From: Mollicutes bacterium
GTDB lineage: Bacteria; Bacillota_I; Bacilli_A; Izemoplasmatales; Izemoplasmataceae
Length of the DNA stretch: 34,406 nucleotides
Assembly: GCA_003559235.1 (NCBI GenBank)
Contig: PWME01000116.1
Coordinates: forward strand, 1 to 34,406
Direction: 5' to 3'
Part shown: in pieces, positions 2,930-30,292 of the stretch
How the letters are laid out: each line of letters opens with the position of its first letter
Position numbering within the stretch: position 1 is the first letter of the stretch
Notes under the pieces: generated by a model
Told to the model about the DNA's origin: nothing
Database searches by the model: none
What the model saw: only the letters and a program-made list of their open reading frames with translations
Translations under genes and position numbers: made by a program

Positions 2930-4732
2930 TCAATCATCATAAGTTAGGCCATATCCTAGTGGATAGTGGACATGATTATCTGGTGAATCGAAATAATTTA
3001 AACTTGCTGGCCATGCAAACGATAATTTCCCTTGAAATTCTGTCTGATTATACAATAAATCACTAAAAGCACTTCCGCCTTCAGAGCCTGGCAAAAAAGC
3101 AGCGATAAGTGCATCAAATGTTTCAACTGTATCATCTAACACTAATGGACGCCCACTAACAATGACACCAATCACGTTAAGTCCGAGCGCTTTTGCCTGT
3201 ATAGCTTGTTGGTAGGCTTGCGTATTATCAGGGTGTGCAAGACCATTAAACAAGGTTGGATGTTCAGTATCACCATGGCCTTCAGCATAAGGCGTTTCAC
3301 TAAATACGACAATAACGGTATCCGCATCTTCTAGATTATGAACGATGTGACCTGGGTTGTTTTTCAAGTGGTTTTGAATACCCTCTAAGATTGAAGTTCC
3401 AGTACCCAGACGGGCATCCTGATTGCCTTGCCAATGTGTTGTCCAACCGCCTGCTAAATAACCAACATGATCATGAGCAGGGCCAGTTAAATATAGGTTT
3501 TCAGTGCCGTTTAATGGTAGCACACCATCATTTTCTAATAGAACCATTGAGGCACTGGCTGCCTTTTTTGCAAGTTCTATATGAGAATCACTCGCAAAGT
3601 AAGTTTCAGTGTCTACTCGATGTGTTGGGTTTTCAAACAGATGATGATTATACTTTAATGTTAATATACGTTTTACCGCTTCATCAACTCGTTCTGTTGT
3701 AAGCATGCCCAAGTTAACGGCATCGATGAGTTCAGCGTGTGCAGCTTGCCAATCCATAGGCAACATTACTATATCAACACCAGCATTAATCGAAGTGACG
3801 AGCTGTTCTTGAAACGTGCCATCGAGTTGGAAAATTGCATTCCAATCACTTAACAAAACGCCATTAAATCCAAGCTCATCTCGCAATACAGTTGTTAGCC
3901 AATATTCACTGGCGTGCATTTTAACGCCGTTGATTGAGCTAAAAGAAACCATAATGATCGACACGCCAGCTTCAATAGCTTCAATAAATGGTGGTAAATG
4001 GTAATCGCGTACGGCTTGTTCACTTAAGATAGCATCGCCTTGGTCAATGCCTTTAAAAGTCCCTCCATCGGCCACAAAGTGTTTAGCGGTAGCGATGGCG
4101 TGATGGGACTGTAGACCTTGTATGAATGAAGCAACTAAATTGGCGTGTATGCTTGGGTCTTCACTGAAAGATTCATACGTTCTACCCCAACGTATGTCGC
4201 GTGCGACGCTAACCGCTGGACTAAAGTTCCAATGGATGCCAGTTGCTTTCATCTCTAAGGCCGTTGCTTCACCGATTTGTTCAACCAATGCTGCATCGTT
4301 CATCATTCCGAGATTGATGTTATGTGGGAAGATTGTTGCGCCATAAACATTATTATGGCCATGGACAGCATCAGTGCCATAAAGCAGTGGAATGGAACAC
4401 CGTGCCTCAAGTGCAGCTTCTTGATAGTCTTTTACCATTTCATACCACACACTAACGTCATCATCATAATGATTTGGGTGACTGCCGCCTCCACTTAAGA
4501 TACTTCCAATACCATATTCAGTAACTTCTTCAGGGGTAATATACTTTTCTTCTGCTTGTAACATCTGTGCGATTTTTTCTTCTAATGTCAAGTTAGCCAT
4601 CAGATGATTAATGAAATGCTCTTTGTCGTCTTTATCACTAGGCAAGCATAGCGCTTAATCGTCGCGTTCATTCACACAAGCAAAAATAAGAAAACTTACC
4701 AATAGTATCAGCATGGTTAACAATTTTTTCAT
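2930..4732 (-). CDS. GH3 beta-glucosidase/exo-beta-glucanase (ExoI-like), lipoprotein signal peptide interrupted by in-frame TAA at codon 26
   Basis: Catalytic ORF 2930..4645 has GH3 motifs LTLEEKIAQM, GTDAVHGHNNVYGATIFPHNI, KHFVADGGT, LLSDWNAI, AGGWTTHWQG, PLGYGLT. Upstream, in the same frame, AGGAGG..ATG (4732) encodes MKKLLTMLILLVSFLIFAC|VNERDD then TAA, then ALCLPSDKDDKEHF... continuing into the GH3 domain. Confidence 0.85.
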
Positions 4733-4744
4733 AGACGCCTCCTA

Positions 4745-4766
4745 AAACGATTTCGTTTCAAGTATA
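4745..4766 (-). promoter_or_regulatory. Extended -10 promoter (TGT-TATACT) with adjacent LacI-type operator for the minus-strand GH3
   Basis: Minus strand reads TGTTATACT-TG-AAACGAAATCGTTT-TAGGAGGCGTCTATG; AAACGA/TCGTTT inverted repeat. Confidence 0.65.
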
Positions 4767-5073
4767 ACACGGAAGAGCCTGTTGTGCACTATGCATCTAA
4801 AAACAGCACTTTCTGTGATCCTTAAATTAAAAATAGAAGCCATTAAGAATAGAAAAATAGATATTTGTAAGATTGATTTCCATGGTGTTATCCATGACAA
4901 AACTGCCATAAAAAAAGATTTTTTAAAAGGTTTTTGAAGATTTTTTTCGTATTTGTTACATGCATATTATACGTTTAGTGTAGAAAGCTTTTTTACTTTA
5001 AAGAAGCCCTGTGTTTTATTTTTCAAAATAAGAATGAAAAAAATACATATGACAAGAACTAATTGAAATTACG

Positions 5074-5110: not shown

Positions 5111-5133
5111 TATAAACGAAAACGATTTCGTTA
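5111..5133 (+). promoter_or_regulatory. -10-like TATAAA followed by LacI-type operator AAAACGATTTCGTT
   Basis: TATAAA-cg-AAAACGATTTCGTT-A just upstream of the SD/ATG of GH30; the exact 14-mer also occurs at 4744-4757. Confidence 0.6.
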
Positions 5134-18328: not shown

Positions 18329-20352
18329 AAAAGGTTTTATTTATTGTATTGTGTCTGTTCATGCTTCTCATCGGCACAACAACTATTGAAGCAGAGACGG
18401 GTGTTCGTTATCACACATATACCATGAGTAACAACCGGTTAGTCAGAACGCAAACTGCATATATTCCAGTGGCGTCTAGTGATCAGATTTATGACGTTGA
18501 TTTAGGTGAGCCTAATGACATACACGTTGATAGAAATAATACCGTCTATATTGTTTCTACTATGCCAGGAGGTTTTGGACGTTTAATTGTGTTTGATTTA
18601 GAAACCGAAGAAGCTTCAGTTTATGGTGAAGAATTTTTGGTTAATCCAACCGGTGTTTATGTTAGTCCAAATCAAGAAATTTATATTGCCGATCGTGGCG
18701 GGCGCAAGGCTTATCGACTCGATCAAGATGGCACTATACTACAGTCTTTTGAACGCCCTGTTTCACCTATTTTTGGCGATGGAGAGTTCCAACCTCGAAA
18801 GATAGTGGCTGATTCAAGAGGCAATGCGTATATTCTTAACCGTGGAACACGAGGCCTTGCGCAATTTAGTCGCAATGGGGATTTTCTTGGATATTATGGG
18901 ACGAATACAATCGCCCCAACGTTAAGAACGATATTGCAATATACGTTTTTTACACAAGAACAACTGTCTAGATTATTTAGTTTATCACCACCAGAAATCG
19001 CGAATATGGCTGTTGATCAACGGGGCCTAATCCATACGGTTAGTCTCGGTGTTGAAAACTACGGCGTGAAACGCTTAAATATTAGTGGTGACAATTTGCT
19101 GCCGGCCATGTTTAACGCACCAAATCTTGTAGATGTTTTTGTGGGACCTATTGGAAATATATACACCATTACAACCGACGGAATAATTTATGAATATGAC
19201 CGGGAAGGCAATTTATTGTTTATGTTTGGTGGTCAAGATGTCAGTAATCAAGTGCAAGGGCTTTTCAATGTACCTTCTGCGATTGCTGTTGATAGTGATT
19301 ACAATATATTTGTGCTAGATCGCGCGGCGGGAGAACTACAAGTTTTCATGCCAACACGGTTTGCGAACATGGTTCATCAAGCCCTTGAAACGTATCAAGA
19401 CGGTGATTATATTGCGAGTCAAGAACCATGGTCTGAAGTGCTGAAAATGAATGACTTCTTTGATTTAGCTCATCGCGGTATGGGGAATGCACATTTTAGT
19501 TTAGGAAACTTTGATGACGCATTAGAAGCGTATCGCATTGCTTATGATCGTGAGGGCTATAGTGAGGCGTTTTGGGAAGTTCGTAATGCGTGGTTATTGC
19601 AGCATGCGCCAAGTATGTTAACCGTGTTTTTTGTCGTAATTGTTTTGTATATTATTAATTTGAAAGCTAAGTTTTCACGAATTGTTACAACGCCACTAAA
19701 GCAACGTTTTGCCACATTACGAAAAAAAGTCCGCACATTAGATGAAGTTTTGTACGTATTCACCTATTTGCGTAATCCAGCGGATGCCAGTTATTTTATT
19801 AAACGTCGCAACCGTGTCAGTATGTTTTCGGCAACGCTTTTATTGGGTATATTTTTCTTGTTTTATGTGTTTTATATATATCAGCTCAGCTTTCTTTTTA
19901 ACATGAGAATTATTCAAAACATCAATTTAACGGAAGAGTTAATAAAAATCTTTTTGCCGTTTGGTTTATGGGTACTTGCGAACACATTAATTGGATCGAT
20001 TCGTGAAGGGGAAGGCCGGTTTAAAGATGTTTATATTACGACGATTTTTAGTCTTGCGCCATTTTTCCTCATCTTACCTATACTAACCATTATGTCGCAG
20101 GTGTTGACGTATAATGAAGCGTTTTTAATGGAGTTTGTCATGTTTATCGCCATCGGGGTTACGGTTATTTATTTCTTCTTCATGGTAAAAGAAACACATT
20201 ACTATACAGTTAAGGAGACTTTCCAATCGATTGCCATTTCAGCATTCACAATGGCTATGCTCATTTTAGGAACGTTTATCATTTATATTCTTTTGAACGA
20301 ATTGTTTGCATTGATACGTGATATTGTCATGGAGGTGTTTTATCGTGTCTGA
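18325..20352 (+). CDS. Exported NHL-like beta-propeller + TPR-like + C-terminal Yip1-like multi-TM protein
   Basis: Signal peptide ...[12 protein letters not shown]; propeller repeats [108 protein letters not shown]-like [56 protein letters not shown]; several C-terminal TM helices. ATGA overlap with preceding gene. Confidence 0.8.
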
Positions 20353-22708
20353 TGTTATTAAAAAGGCCTTTATTGCTTTTTTGTTCCTCATTGCAGGGGT
20401 AGTGTTTGTGAACGCTGTCCATGATGATGTACCCGTTGATAATGATGTACCTAGTGGATTTTATAATTATATTGAAAATCATAAATTAAATTCATCGCGG
20501 TTTTCACGTCCTGAAGACATGCAAGCAATTGACCCTGATACTATTATCCCTATAACCGACGATGATCAATATTTGATGAGTAATAATCGCTTTGAGTTAT
20601 ACATGAATCAAGCGACATTAAACTTTAAAGTGCTCAATAAAACAACAGGTTATGTATGGTCAACGGCAATGGATGCGCCTGATGCTGGTACTTATAACAG
20701 CCTTTTGGCCAGTGGTATTGGCATCGAGTATATCAATAAAGAGCAAAACATGTCAGTAAGAGAAAATGTTGGGCTAATTGAAACACAGTTTTCAACCATA
20801 GTGTATCCACGTGAAGACGGTGTATCCATTCAGATAGATATAGCGGATTATTGTGCGACGCGAAGGTGTCGAGATAATTATGATGCTTATTTGGATGGGG
20901 ATTATACTCTAGAGCAAATGATTCAATTCGGGTTGGTTGAACTTGGTGTTGCTTTCACACTAAATATTACGTTTAATGAAACAGGGATAACTGCAGAAAT
21001 ACCGTTTCATTCTATTATAGAAATAGAAACAGACTGGACGACGTTATCGAGTATTATTATTTTTCCAGCACTAGGGGCGACCTTTATGGAAGATGTTCCA
21101 GGGTATATGATTATTCCTGATGGTATTGGGACACTTATTCGCTATGAAGATAATGAAAGACGGTTTAGAACCCCGTATGAAGCACCTATATACGGGTCTA
21201 ATGTTGGGTTGGCTGCGAGACGCCGTTCAATGGCAAATTATCCTATTACCATGCCTATCTTTGGTGCGGTGCACGGGGTTCGTCAAAACGCTTTTGTAGG
21301 TATCATTGAATCCGGAGATTTTAATGCACGTTTAATCGCCTATCCAAACGGAGCCAATAATCTTGACTATAATCTAATCTTTCCAAAATTCGACTATAAA
21401 CAGCGTTATCGTCAAAGTTTTACCCGCGATGGTGCGGATGGGGCGAGAAGAGTTGTCGATACAAGTTATGCTGATGTTGTGGTCCATTACCATTTCCTTG
21501 ACAATGATGCGGCACATTATACAGGTGTAGCAGAAGTATATCGCAATTATTTAATTGATATAGGAAGCTTAGATCGCATCAACCACACTCAATCACAAAT
21601 ACCGTTGCACATTAGTTTGTTGATGGCGGATTCTACGAATCGTTTTATTGGTCAATCGCTTATTGAAATGACATCTGTTGCGGCCGCGAAACGAATTTAC
21701 AATGATTTATATGACGCTGGACTAACACATCAATTAGTGACCTTAAAAGGGTGGAATCAAAATGGCTATAGTGGGCATTTACCTACACCTGTTAATTTTG
21801 AAAGACGCCTTGGTAGAGAGCGAGATTTTATAGATTTGATTGCGCATGTCAATCAAAGCAATCGTGTTTATTTGGTAAACAATTATATCCAAGCGACGAA
21901 TGCGACATCGCGTGTATCATATCGCAATGATGTCGCTTTAGGGGTTGACCGGTTTAAAATAATGCACACACGTGATAACGCTGTATATCCTGAACGCTAC
22001 ACGTTATATCCTGATTCAGCCACCGCGTTTGCTTTGGAGGATATGACTGATTATCAAGCGCTTGATGTTCATGTGTTACATGAAGGGGTTGGTTCAATGC
22101 TCTTCAGTTACTATAAGCGTAATGTATTTACACGTGAAGATACATATGAAGCGCTTCAACCGCTCTTTGAAGCCTATACAAATCAAGCGGGTTATGTTTA
22201 CCCAAATGCATATATTTATCCGTATACTGATACAGTGTTTAATATGCCACTCTTTAATTCACAATTGAATTATTTTGACGACTTGATTCCATTATTGCCA
22301 CTTGTCTTAAGTGGCCATATGGAAATGTATAGTCGATATTTAAATTTCAATAGCTTAGGGCGTGAGCAGTTGCTCGCCATGATTGATTTTGGCATATATC
22401 CTTCCTATTTAGTTTCAGACGCTCGTGCGAGTGATTTGCGCGGATCTGATATAGAGCAATTTTATACAACCGGCTATGCAAATTGGCGTGAAAGTATTAT
22501 TAATGAATATGACTTTATTAATGGTGCGTTGATGCATGTAATGCATGCTGTTATTGTTGATCGCGTCGTATTAGATACCGGGGTTGTATTGGTTTCTTAT
22601 GACAATGGGGTTCGTATTACAATTAATTATACAGCTTCAGAGTATGAGAAAGCTTCCGGCGTTGTCGTGCCACCACTAGATATCCATATTGGAGGTGACA
22701 GCCCATGA
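20345..22708 (+). CDS. DUF5696-like large exported/membrane-anchored protein, possible uncharacterised glycoside-hydrolase-fold protein
   Basis: GTG start ([24 protein letters not shown]) with ggaggtg SD, overlapping the previous stop; beta-rich N half, TIM-barrel-like middle (HQLVTLKGWNQNGYSGHLPTPV...) and C-terminal ...GVVLVSYDNGVRITINYTASEY. Family name recalled from typical Firmicutes neighbourhoods, not searched. Confidence 0.65.
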   Translation: MSDVIKKAFIAFLFLIAGVVFVNAVHDDVPVDNDVPSGFYNYIENHKLNSSRFSRPEDMQAIDPDTIIPITDDDQYLMSNNRFELYMNQATLNFKVLNKTTGYVWSTAMDAPDAGTYNSLLASGIGIEYINKEQNMSVRENVGLIETQFSTIVYPREDGVSIQIDIADYCATRRCRDNYDAYLDGDYTLEQMIQFGLVELGVAFTLNITFNETGITAEIPFHSIIEIETDWTTLSSIIIFPALGATFMEDVPGYMIIPDGIGTLIRYEDNERRFRTPYEAPIYGSNVGLAARRRSMANYPITMPIFGAVHGVRQNAFVGIIESGDFNARLIAYPNGANNLDYNLIFPKFDYKQRYRQSFTRDGADGARRVVDTSYADVVVHYHFLDNDAAHYTGVAEVYRNYLIDIGSLDRINHTQSQIPLHISLLMADSTNRFIGQSLIEMTSVAAAKRIYNDLYDAGLTHQLVTLKGWNQNGYSGHLPTPVNFERRLGRERDFIDLIAHVNQSNRVYLVNNYIQATNATSRVSYRNDVALGVDRFKIMHTRDNAVYPERYTLYPDSATAFALEDMTDYQALDVHVLHEGVGSMLFSYYKRNVFTREDTYEALQPLFEAYTNQAGYVYPNAYIYPYTDTVFNMPLFNSQLNYFDDLIPLLPLVLSGHMEMYSRYLNFNSLGREQLLAMIDFGIYPSYLVSDARASDLRGSDIEQFYTTGYANWRESIINEYDFINGALMHVMHAVIVDRVVLDTGVVLVSYDNGVRITINYTASEYEKASGVVVPPLDIHIGGDSP

Positions 22709-28081: not shown

Positions 28082-30292
28082 ATGGGAAAATTGCCAATAG
28101 ATGAAAAGATTAAACTAACGAGTGGTCAAGGGAACTGGCATCTCTTTGAAAGTGCATTGCTTGAAGGCCGAAGCATTAATGTGGCAGATGGTCCACACGG
28201 AGTTAGGGTGTATGGCAAAGCGGTGGATGCTGGCAACTTTTTAAACCAATCGAACCTAATGCCGGCAACGCTTTTTCCAAGTGCTTCTGCAATGGCGTCA
28301 ACGTGGAACAAGGAATTAATCGAAAACGTTGGTAAAATTATCGGACGTGAATGTCGCTATTATCAAATTGATGTTTTATTGGGACCTGGTATCAACTTAA
28401 AGCGTAGTCCTTTAGGGGGGCGTAATTTTGAATATTATAGTGAAGATCCGTATTTAACCAGTACCATTGCGGAAGCTTTTGTAAAAGGCGTTCAGTCTGA
28501 ACATGTCGGCGCGTGTATCAAACACTTTGGACTCAATGAACAAGAAACGATGCGCCGATTTGTGGATGTGAAGGTGGATGAACGCACCATGCATGAAATG
28601 TATCTATACCCATTTTATAAGGTCATAAAGAACGCGCAACCATGGATGGTTATGAGTAGTTACAATCGCTTAAATGGTGTGTACGCTTCTGAGTCTTCTT
28701 ATTTACTAAAGGATATCCTCCGTAAACGTTGGGGATATCAAGGGGTGGTTGTTTCAGATTGGGGTGCGGTTCAAGATAAAGTTAAATCTTTAAAAAATGG
28801 CATGAATATTGACATGCCGGGACCGTCAGCATTTGAAAGTAAGGTGAAGGATGCCTTACAACAAGGAACATTAACTGAACGTGAACTCGATGAGAGTTTA
28901 AAGCCTGTATTCGATTTACACAAACGCATTCAAACAACCCAAAAACTTAAAGACATTAATTTCGAAAAGCATCATCAGAGGGCAAAAAGTGTAGCCGAAG
29001 AAGCGATTGTTTTACTTGAAAATGATGGCGTTTTGCCGATAAAAAACCACCAAACAAAACTGGGTATTGTCGGGGATTTTGCAAAACATCCACGCATTAA
29101 TGGTGGTGGGAGTGCAACGGTGAGGCCTTATAAACAAGAAATCCCGTATGATGCGTTTAAAGAAGTCTTTGACAATATTGATTATGCCCAAGCATATCAA
29201 GAAGAAGAAACAACCGATGCATTAATCGCTGAAGCGGTTGACGTTGCTAAGGCGAGTGACATTGTTTTATTCTTCACTGGGACAACAAAAGCCACTGAAA
29301 CCGAAGGGCAGGACCGACCTCATATGATGCTTCCCGTGAGCCATCTTAACGTTTTTAATGCAATGCGGAAGATCAACAAAAACATAGTCGTAATCTTAAG
29401 CAACGGCAGTGCTTTGGATTTACGGTCTGTGCGACCCCATAGTCGGGCTATTTTAGAAACCTGGTTTTTAGGTGGTGCAGCCGGCAAAGCGATTGTTGAT
29501 GTGGTGATTGGCGCTGTGAATCCAAGCGGACGATTACAAGAAACATTTCCGTACATGGTAGAACATACACCGCATTATCCAACATTTCCTTCACTAGAAA
29601 CCGTGGATTATTCGCAAGACTTAATCATGAATGGCTATCGTTTTTACGATACCCATCGGTATGAAGTCTTGTACCCTTTTGGCTATGGTCTAAGCTATGC
29701 AACCATTGATTATAGCGATATCCGCTTTGTTAATGCAAGCGATAATCAGTCAATTATTTCTGTTGAGGTTACTTTAGAAAATCACAGTGATATTGATGCG
29801 TATGAAACGGTTCAACTTTACGTTGGCAAAAACATTGAGTACTTAATTAAACCAGAAAAAGAACTCAAAGCGTTTGAAAAAGTTTTCGTTCGTGCTAAAT
29901 CGAAAGCAATAGTTACCATTAAAGTCGAACGTGAAGCATTTGAGACTTACGATACAAGGCGTCAACAATTTGTTGTTTATAATGGGTGTTATACAATCCA
30001 TGTTGGACGGCATAGTCGTGCGATTTATGCAACGCATAGTGTCGATATTACCGACAAGGTCACGTTTCATCCTGCAATTACATTTGATTATCCAATTAAG
30101 TTTCTAAAACTTTATTATCCTCACTGGTATGAATATATCGAAACACATTATCGTCCTTTAAGGTGGCATGAACAAGAAGCACCGATTTGGCGAATTCTTA
30201 ATAGCTATCAGCGACATAAAGGTATTGATGATGTAATTCTCAAGCAGTTAATGAAAGATATAAAAGCAGATTTGGATGCATCTAATAAGTAG
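28082..30292 (+). CDS. GH3 beta-glucosidase with FN3-like C-terminus, cytoplasmic
   Basis: NVADGPHGVRVYG, LLGPGINLKRSPLGGRNFEYYSEDPYL, CIKHFGLNEQE, VVSDWGAV, FGYGLSYATIDY; SD gggagg; no signal peptide. Confidence 0.94.
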   Translation: MGKLPIDEKIKLTSGQGNWHLFESALLEGRSINVADGPHGVRVYGKAVDAGNFLNQSNLMPATLFPSASAMASTWNKELIENVGKIIGRECRYYQIDVLLGPGINLKRSPLGGRNFEYYSEDPYLTSTIAEAFVKGVQSEHVGACIKHFGLNEQETMRRFVDVKVDERTMHEMYLYPFYKVIKNAQPWMVMSSYNRLNGVYASESSYLLKDILRKRWGYQGVVVSDWGAVQDKVKSLKNGMNIDMPGPSAFESKVKDALQQGTLTERELDESLKPVFDLHKRIQTTQKLKDINFEKHHQRAKSVAEEAIVLLENDGVLPIKNHQTKLGIVGDFAKHPRINGGGSATVRPYKQEIPYDAFKEVFDNIDYAQAYQEEETTDALIAEAVDVAKASDIVLFFTGTTKATETEGQDRPHMMLPVSHLNVFNAMRKINKNIVVILSNGSALDLRSVRPHSRAILETWFLGGAAGKAIVDVVIGAVNPSGRLQETFPYMVEHTPHYPTFPSLETVDYSQDLIMNGYRFYDTHRYEVLYPFGYGLSYATIDYSDIRFVNASDNQSIISVEVTLENHSDIDAYETVQLYVGKNIEYLIKPEKELKAFEKVFVRAKSKAIVTIKVEREAFETYDTRRQQFVVYNGCYTIHVGRHSRAIYATHSVDITDKVTFHPAITFDYPIKFLKLYYPHWYEYIETHYRPLRWHEQEAPIWRILNSYQRHKGIDDVILKQLMKDIKADLDASNK

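Follow-up and report, generated by a model that had tools for sequence, protein, structure and literature searches.

A lone in-frame TAA between the lipoprotein leader and the catalytic domain of a GH3 gene is one of several such stops in a Mollicutes draft genome

Results and discussion

Contig PWME01000116.1 of a Mollicutes bacterium (34,406 nucleotides; the window analysed here is the whole contig, C82) carries a GH3 gene that is interrupted by a single in-frame TAA, and this stop is not unique in its genome, as at least four unrelated genes of the same assembly bear a lone in-frame TAA as well. The stop is present in the record as the initial annotation described it, but comparison with the rest of the assembly shows that it is not special to this gene. 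It appears ordinary, the product of a recent mutation or of a fault in assembly, with no new mechanism involved. We infer, with a probability only slightly above one half (about 0.55), that it is an isolated nonsense substitution that arose from a base fault or a minority allele in a strain-mixed draft, and not a fixed trait.

The interrupted GH3 gene

Read on the minus strand, the gene comprises a Shine-Dalgarno sequence AGGAGG (4738-4743), an ATG (4732-4730), a lipoprotein leader of 25 codons (MKKLLTMLILLVSFLIFAC-VNERDD, 4658-4732), the TAA (4657-4655) and, in the same frame throughout, a remainder that begins with ALC-LPSDKDD and stays open for 574 codons until the TGA at 2930 (2930-4654). 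This agrees with the initial annotation in both sequence and coordinates, and the common frame of leader and domain rules out a pair of frameshifts posing as a stop. The leader displays a short basic start, a hydrophobic stretch and a lipobox with its Cys (judged by eye and from the alignment); the lipobox reads I-F-A-C, with Phe at position -2, as it does in the sister genome G023 (L-F-G-C). As had been anticipated for automatic gene calling, the list of open reading frames gives a TTG-started form of 571 aa (2930-4645), so a cytoplasmic enzyme is listed for what is a family of surface lipoproteins.

The domain that follows the stop was said to be open and to retain its motifs, and the profile searches bear this out. 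Both Pfam domains are full-length (PF00933: E-value 6.2e-78, residues 20-330, profile positions 1-316 of 316; PF01915: E-value 3e-29, residues 367-569, profile positions 1-200 of 200), i.e. the two-domain GH3 architecture of a TIM-barrel domain and a sandwich domain is complete. The nucleophile Asp (3845-3847, minus strand) is present within the signature VLRDELGFNGVLLSDWNA, identified by a scripted match to a PROSITE-type pattern, while the Glu in YAEGHGD (computed position 3281-3283, minus strand) is presumably the acid/base residue, by analogy with barley ExoI. The nearest solved structures are 5m6g (beta-glucosidase, E-value 2.9e-130), 3usz (exo-1,3/1,4-beta-glucanase) and 1ex1 (barley ExoI), each covering the protein from residues 10-12 to residues 569-571. 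The NCBIfam model for exo-beta-1,3/1,6-glucosidases scored 300 bits, far below its cut-off of 1330 bits. With its catalytic signature kept, the protein resembles the barley ExoI and bacterial ExoP type of GH3 enzymes, from which it differs in that the enzyme of its relatives is carried by a lipoprotein leader, interrupted in this record. The gene is predicted to code for an exported, lipid-anchored exo-beta-glucanase of the ExoI/ExoP type.

Orthologues and the lipoprotein leader

The homologue search covered 120 related genomes, none of the same genus, and found a GH3 relative in 34 of them. The named relatives are "Mollicutes bacterium B1Sed10_81" and "uncultured Acholeplasmataceae OKU6". Twenty-six orthologues (~44-65% identity) are readable at the N-terminus; the lipobox Cys falls in one alignment column in all 26, and the full hydrophobic leader is visible in 25, the remaining one being cut at a contig edge. 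The 25-codon leader of the interrupted gene agrees with these leaders in position and type. In none of the 26 does a stop precede the catalytic domain, so that the sense codon expected in close homologues is what the comparison returned. Because the orthologues share the leader without the stop, and the sister genomes share the arrangement of operator, TTTAGGAGG and ATG, the gene was built as a lipoprotein, as the initial annotation proposed, and the TAA that breaks it is private to this record. A natural start at LPSDKDD was ruled out, since no orthologue begins there, and so was a leader reading frame arising by chance, given the conserved arrangement of lipobox Cys, Shine-Dalgarno sequence and operator. 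No intact second copy of the gene was found in the genome, where the sole other GH3 gene belongs to a different subfamily.

A stop that is absent from all orthologues is also what a young pseudogene would show, i.e. a recent nonsense mutation fixed in the population, with the surface exo-beta-glucanase lost and the remaining glucan locus kept. We consider this a tentative second explanation, with odds of roughly one in three. Apart from the TAA the frame is intact: 102 of 104 otherwise invariant columns and the catalytic residues are kept, and the differences from a sister gene (L004) are distributed over codon positions as 177/113/336, mostly at position 3. The GH3 branch is slightly longer than those of the sisters (0.48 versus ~0.31-0.39), and relative-rate tests with two outgroups gave private changes of 64:41 to 69:33, the result with a third outgroup not being significant. 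The longer branch would fit mild relaxation in a truly broken gene, though the neighbouring GH30 gene has a similar ratio of private changes (35:24). A strong loss of constraint is unsupported, considering the retained invariant columns and the comparable GH30 ratio. Part of the lost function could be covered by other genes of the locus, namely the second GH3 without a signal peptide (28082-30292), GH94 and the GH149-like phosphorylase, and other genomes of the group have an occasional lone stop too (G107, G023). On the other hand, no second lesion is present across the 571 GH3 codons, four unrelated genes of the assembly bear a like lesion, not one frameshift was found and the bin mixes strains. 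Should the stops be borne out by reads, a surface glucan exo-enzyme would be missing from the organism, with the uptake system retained.

Upstream region and translation starts

The initial annotation credited the gene with an operator and a Shine-Dalgarno sequence of its own. A pattern scan identified a LacI-type operator-like palindrome, AACGAAATCGTT in the minus-strand reading, at 4746-4757, two bases ahead of the Shine-Dalgarno sequence, and a similar palindrome at 5121-5132, ahead of the divergent GH30 gene. The arrangement of operator, TTTAGGAGG and ATG recurs identically in two sister genomes, G023 and G045, and as close variants in L006, L008 and L009; equivalents of the operator (CGAAAACGTTTTAGGAGG) were found in L036 and L037, and variants in L008 and L009. 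The Shine-Dalgarno sequence itself is shared, at near-identical spacing, by L004, L005, L006, L008 and L009. The palindrome at 4746-4757 probably acts as an operator. The operator abuts the Shine-Dalgarno sequence (CGTTTTAGGAGG, 4738-4757), a tight layout that is conserved across genera (L036, L037, L008, L009). The promoter-like hexamers TGCACA-16-TATACT (4761-4788, minus strand) represent one weak match, of which shuffled sequences contain more on average; a TATAAT-like hexamer occupies the equivalent place in sister loci.

Three explanations had been offered for the stop, of which a nonsense mutation and a sequence or assembly error still stand, and reinitiation finds no support in the sequence. 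According to the latter, the stop would serve as a functional switch, with translation resuming at TTG 4645, ten bases past the stop, or at a later in-frame ATG, to yield a cytoplasmic GH3 that acts on imported oligosaccharides. Such a product would be complete, as the GH3 domain does not begin until residue 20 of the protein started at TTG, and the two ABC permease pairs of the locus, together with the GH30, GH16b, GH3b and GH94 proteins that have no signal peptides, could provide it with substrate. However, neither TTG 4645 nor the later ATG is preceded by a Shine-Dalgarno sequence, the stretch from the stop to TTG 4645 contains an out-of-frame ATG whose frame reaches a TAG after three codons, and no orthologue starts in the manner of TTG 4645. 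Around the stop there is no special RNA structure (z = 0.41 relative to shuffled sequences). We therefore regard reinitiation as improbable.

Lone stops in other genes of the assembly

A survey of 794 kb of the assembly (577 genes) for coding pairs in the same frame that are parted by a lone stop revealed, beyond GH3, at least four genes with a lone in-frame TAA and otherwise intact frames. They encode a gamma-glutamyltransferase (GGT; C100:2224, L069; relatives mostly with Leu or Met at the stop position), an NqrF-like reductase (C48:30403, L080:10403; Glu or Asp), a YloV/DhaL protein (C162:4616, L126; Glu or Asp) and a surface protein (C223:35855, L077:15855; Glu in the two nearest relatives). 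Each of them has one TAA in this genome and is open in nearly all of ~50 relatives; the surface-protein relative in G016 has a stop at a different place, at the extreme C-terminus. Further candidates of the survey (L081, L085, L100 twice, L101 and L113) were judged by eye to be ordinary adjacent genes. At three of the four further stops the nearest relatives have Glu, a change that needs G-to-T and could be a signature of library damage.

When a sample of this genome was compared with G016 proteins, the GH3, GGT, NqrF and YloV stops were found again and no frameshift appeared in the 98.5 kb of coding DNA that aligned. The comparison also yielded one spurious wrong-strand match (L115) and one possibly degenerate gene end (L099:1877-1934), with several stops relative to the G016 protein. 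In the reverse direction no stop or frameshift of G016 was convincing, and its candidate stops were judged by eye as ordinary adjacent genes; the resulting rates, 5 of 577 genes here versus 0 of 284 in G016, do not differ significantly (Fisher p = 0.18). Domain samples of this genome had no stops among 52 ABC ATPase and 30 permease domains. Five in 577 genes is also an ordinary rate for real nonsense alleles.

The lone stops are TAA in five of five cases and never TAG or TGA; with a TAA share of 0.52 among random nonsense changes, the probability of this outcome is ~0.04. Along with the Glu found in the nearest relatives at three of the four alignable positions, this could be taken to mean that TAA codes for an amino acid, either generally or depending on context, and that the five interrupted genes, including GH3, are expressed whole by ochre suppression. 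Yet TAA terminates 328 of the 577 genes, the relatives have no TAA at these five places, and what they have there instead varies from gene to gene, the GGT position being mostly Leu or Met. No tRNA with the anticodon TTA is among the 21 tRNA genes found, which form an incomplete set. Since TAA ends most genes, the residues at the stops differ and no such tRNA was seen, we consider a changed code very unlikely, even less probable than reinitiation. Programmed readthrough or recoding likewise finds neither a conserved stop in relatives nor a suppressor tRNA in this incomplete set.

Because at least four unrelated genes carry a lone in-frame TAA, the GH3 stop is best regarded as part of the background of this record, the more so as a joint loss of functions as unrelated as GGT, NqrF, YloV and the surface protein is not expected. 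The draft genome (1.7 Mb in 261 contigs, 90% complete, 3.2% contaminated) has contig ends that overlap one another for 227-597 bases, where they are 92.8-97.5% identical and differ mostly at synonymous sites (L068/L103, L073/L132, L088/L089, L096/L105 and L110/L112), and other ends that share exactly 121 bases, as expected for an assembly with k=121 broken at strain variants; both observations indicate that the bin is a strain mixture. Decaying genes usually show frameshifts as well as substitutions. As the lesions are substitutions alone, always to TAA, and occur in a strain-mixed bin, the most economical reading is that the consensus contains a base fault or a minority allele, which is more probably the source of the stop than a fixed trait. 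We propose that the gene is interrupted by a single nonsense substitution, located in the linker that follows the lipobox and is not conserved, and that draft quality and strain mixture have most likely brought a faulty base or the allele of a minority strain into the consensus. If the codon is real in the cell, translation from the strong start would halt after a lipopeptide of 25 residues, and little or no enzyme would be made.

In having one premature stop in an intact frame, open relatives and several such cases in the same assembly, the gene resembles genes of draft metagenome assemblies that are broken by a nonsense codon, be they young pseudogenes or errors of the consensus, and differs from them only in that its stop lies in the linker after the signal peptide and leaves two tidy-looking halves. 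Our literature search found nothing that bears directly on the GH3 stop. Before a story is built on one gene of a draft assembly, the frequency of its lesion across that assembly should be examined; here at least five unrelated genes are affected.

The glucan locus

Contig C82 further encodes a GH30 protein (endo-1,6-beta-glucanase-like), a GH149-like 1,3-beta-glucan phosphorylase, a CBM4 lipoprotein, two solute-binding proteins, two permease pairs, a GH16 lipoprotein, a LacI regulator, a GH16 protein without a signal, the second GH3 and GH94. The substrate names derive from family matches, mostly under the NCBIfam cut-offs, and on this basis the interrupted gene may be assigned to a utilisation locus of the beta-1,3(1,6)-glucan (laminarin) type. 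Between 5063 and 33026, GH30, the GH149-like phosphorylase, GH94 and one GH16, all without signal peptides, stand beside exported lipoproteins. This gene content suggests that oligosaccharides of the laminarin type are imported and then cleaved by phosphorolysis inside the cell. A DUF5696 protein (E-value 3.6e-139, 20318-22708), preceded by an NHL/TPR protein, is encoded between the two permease pairs.
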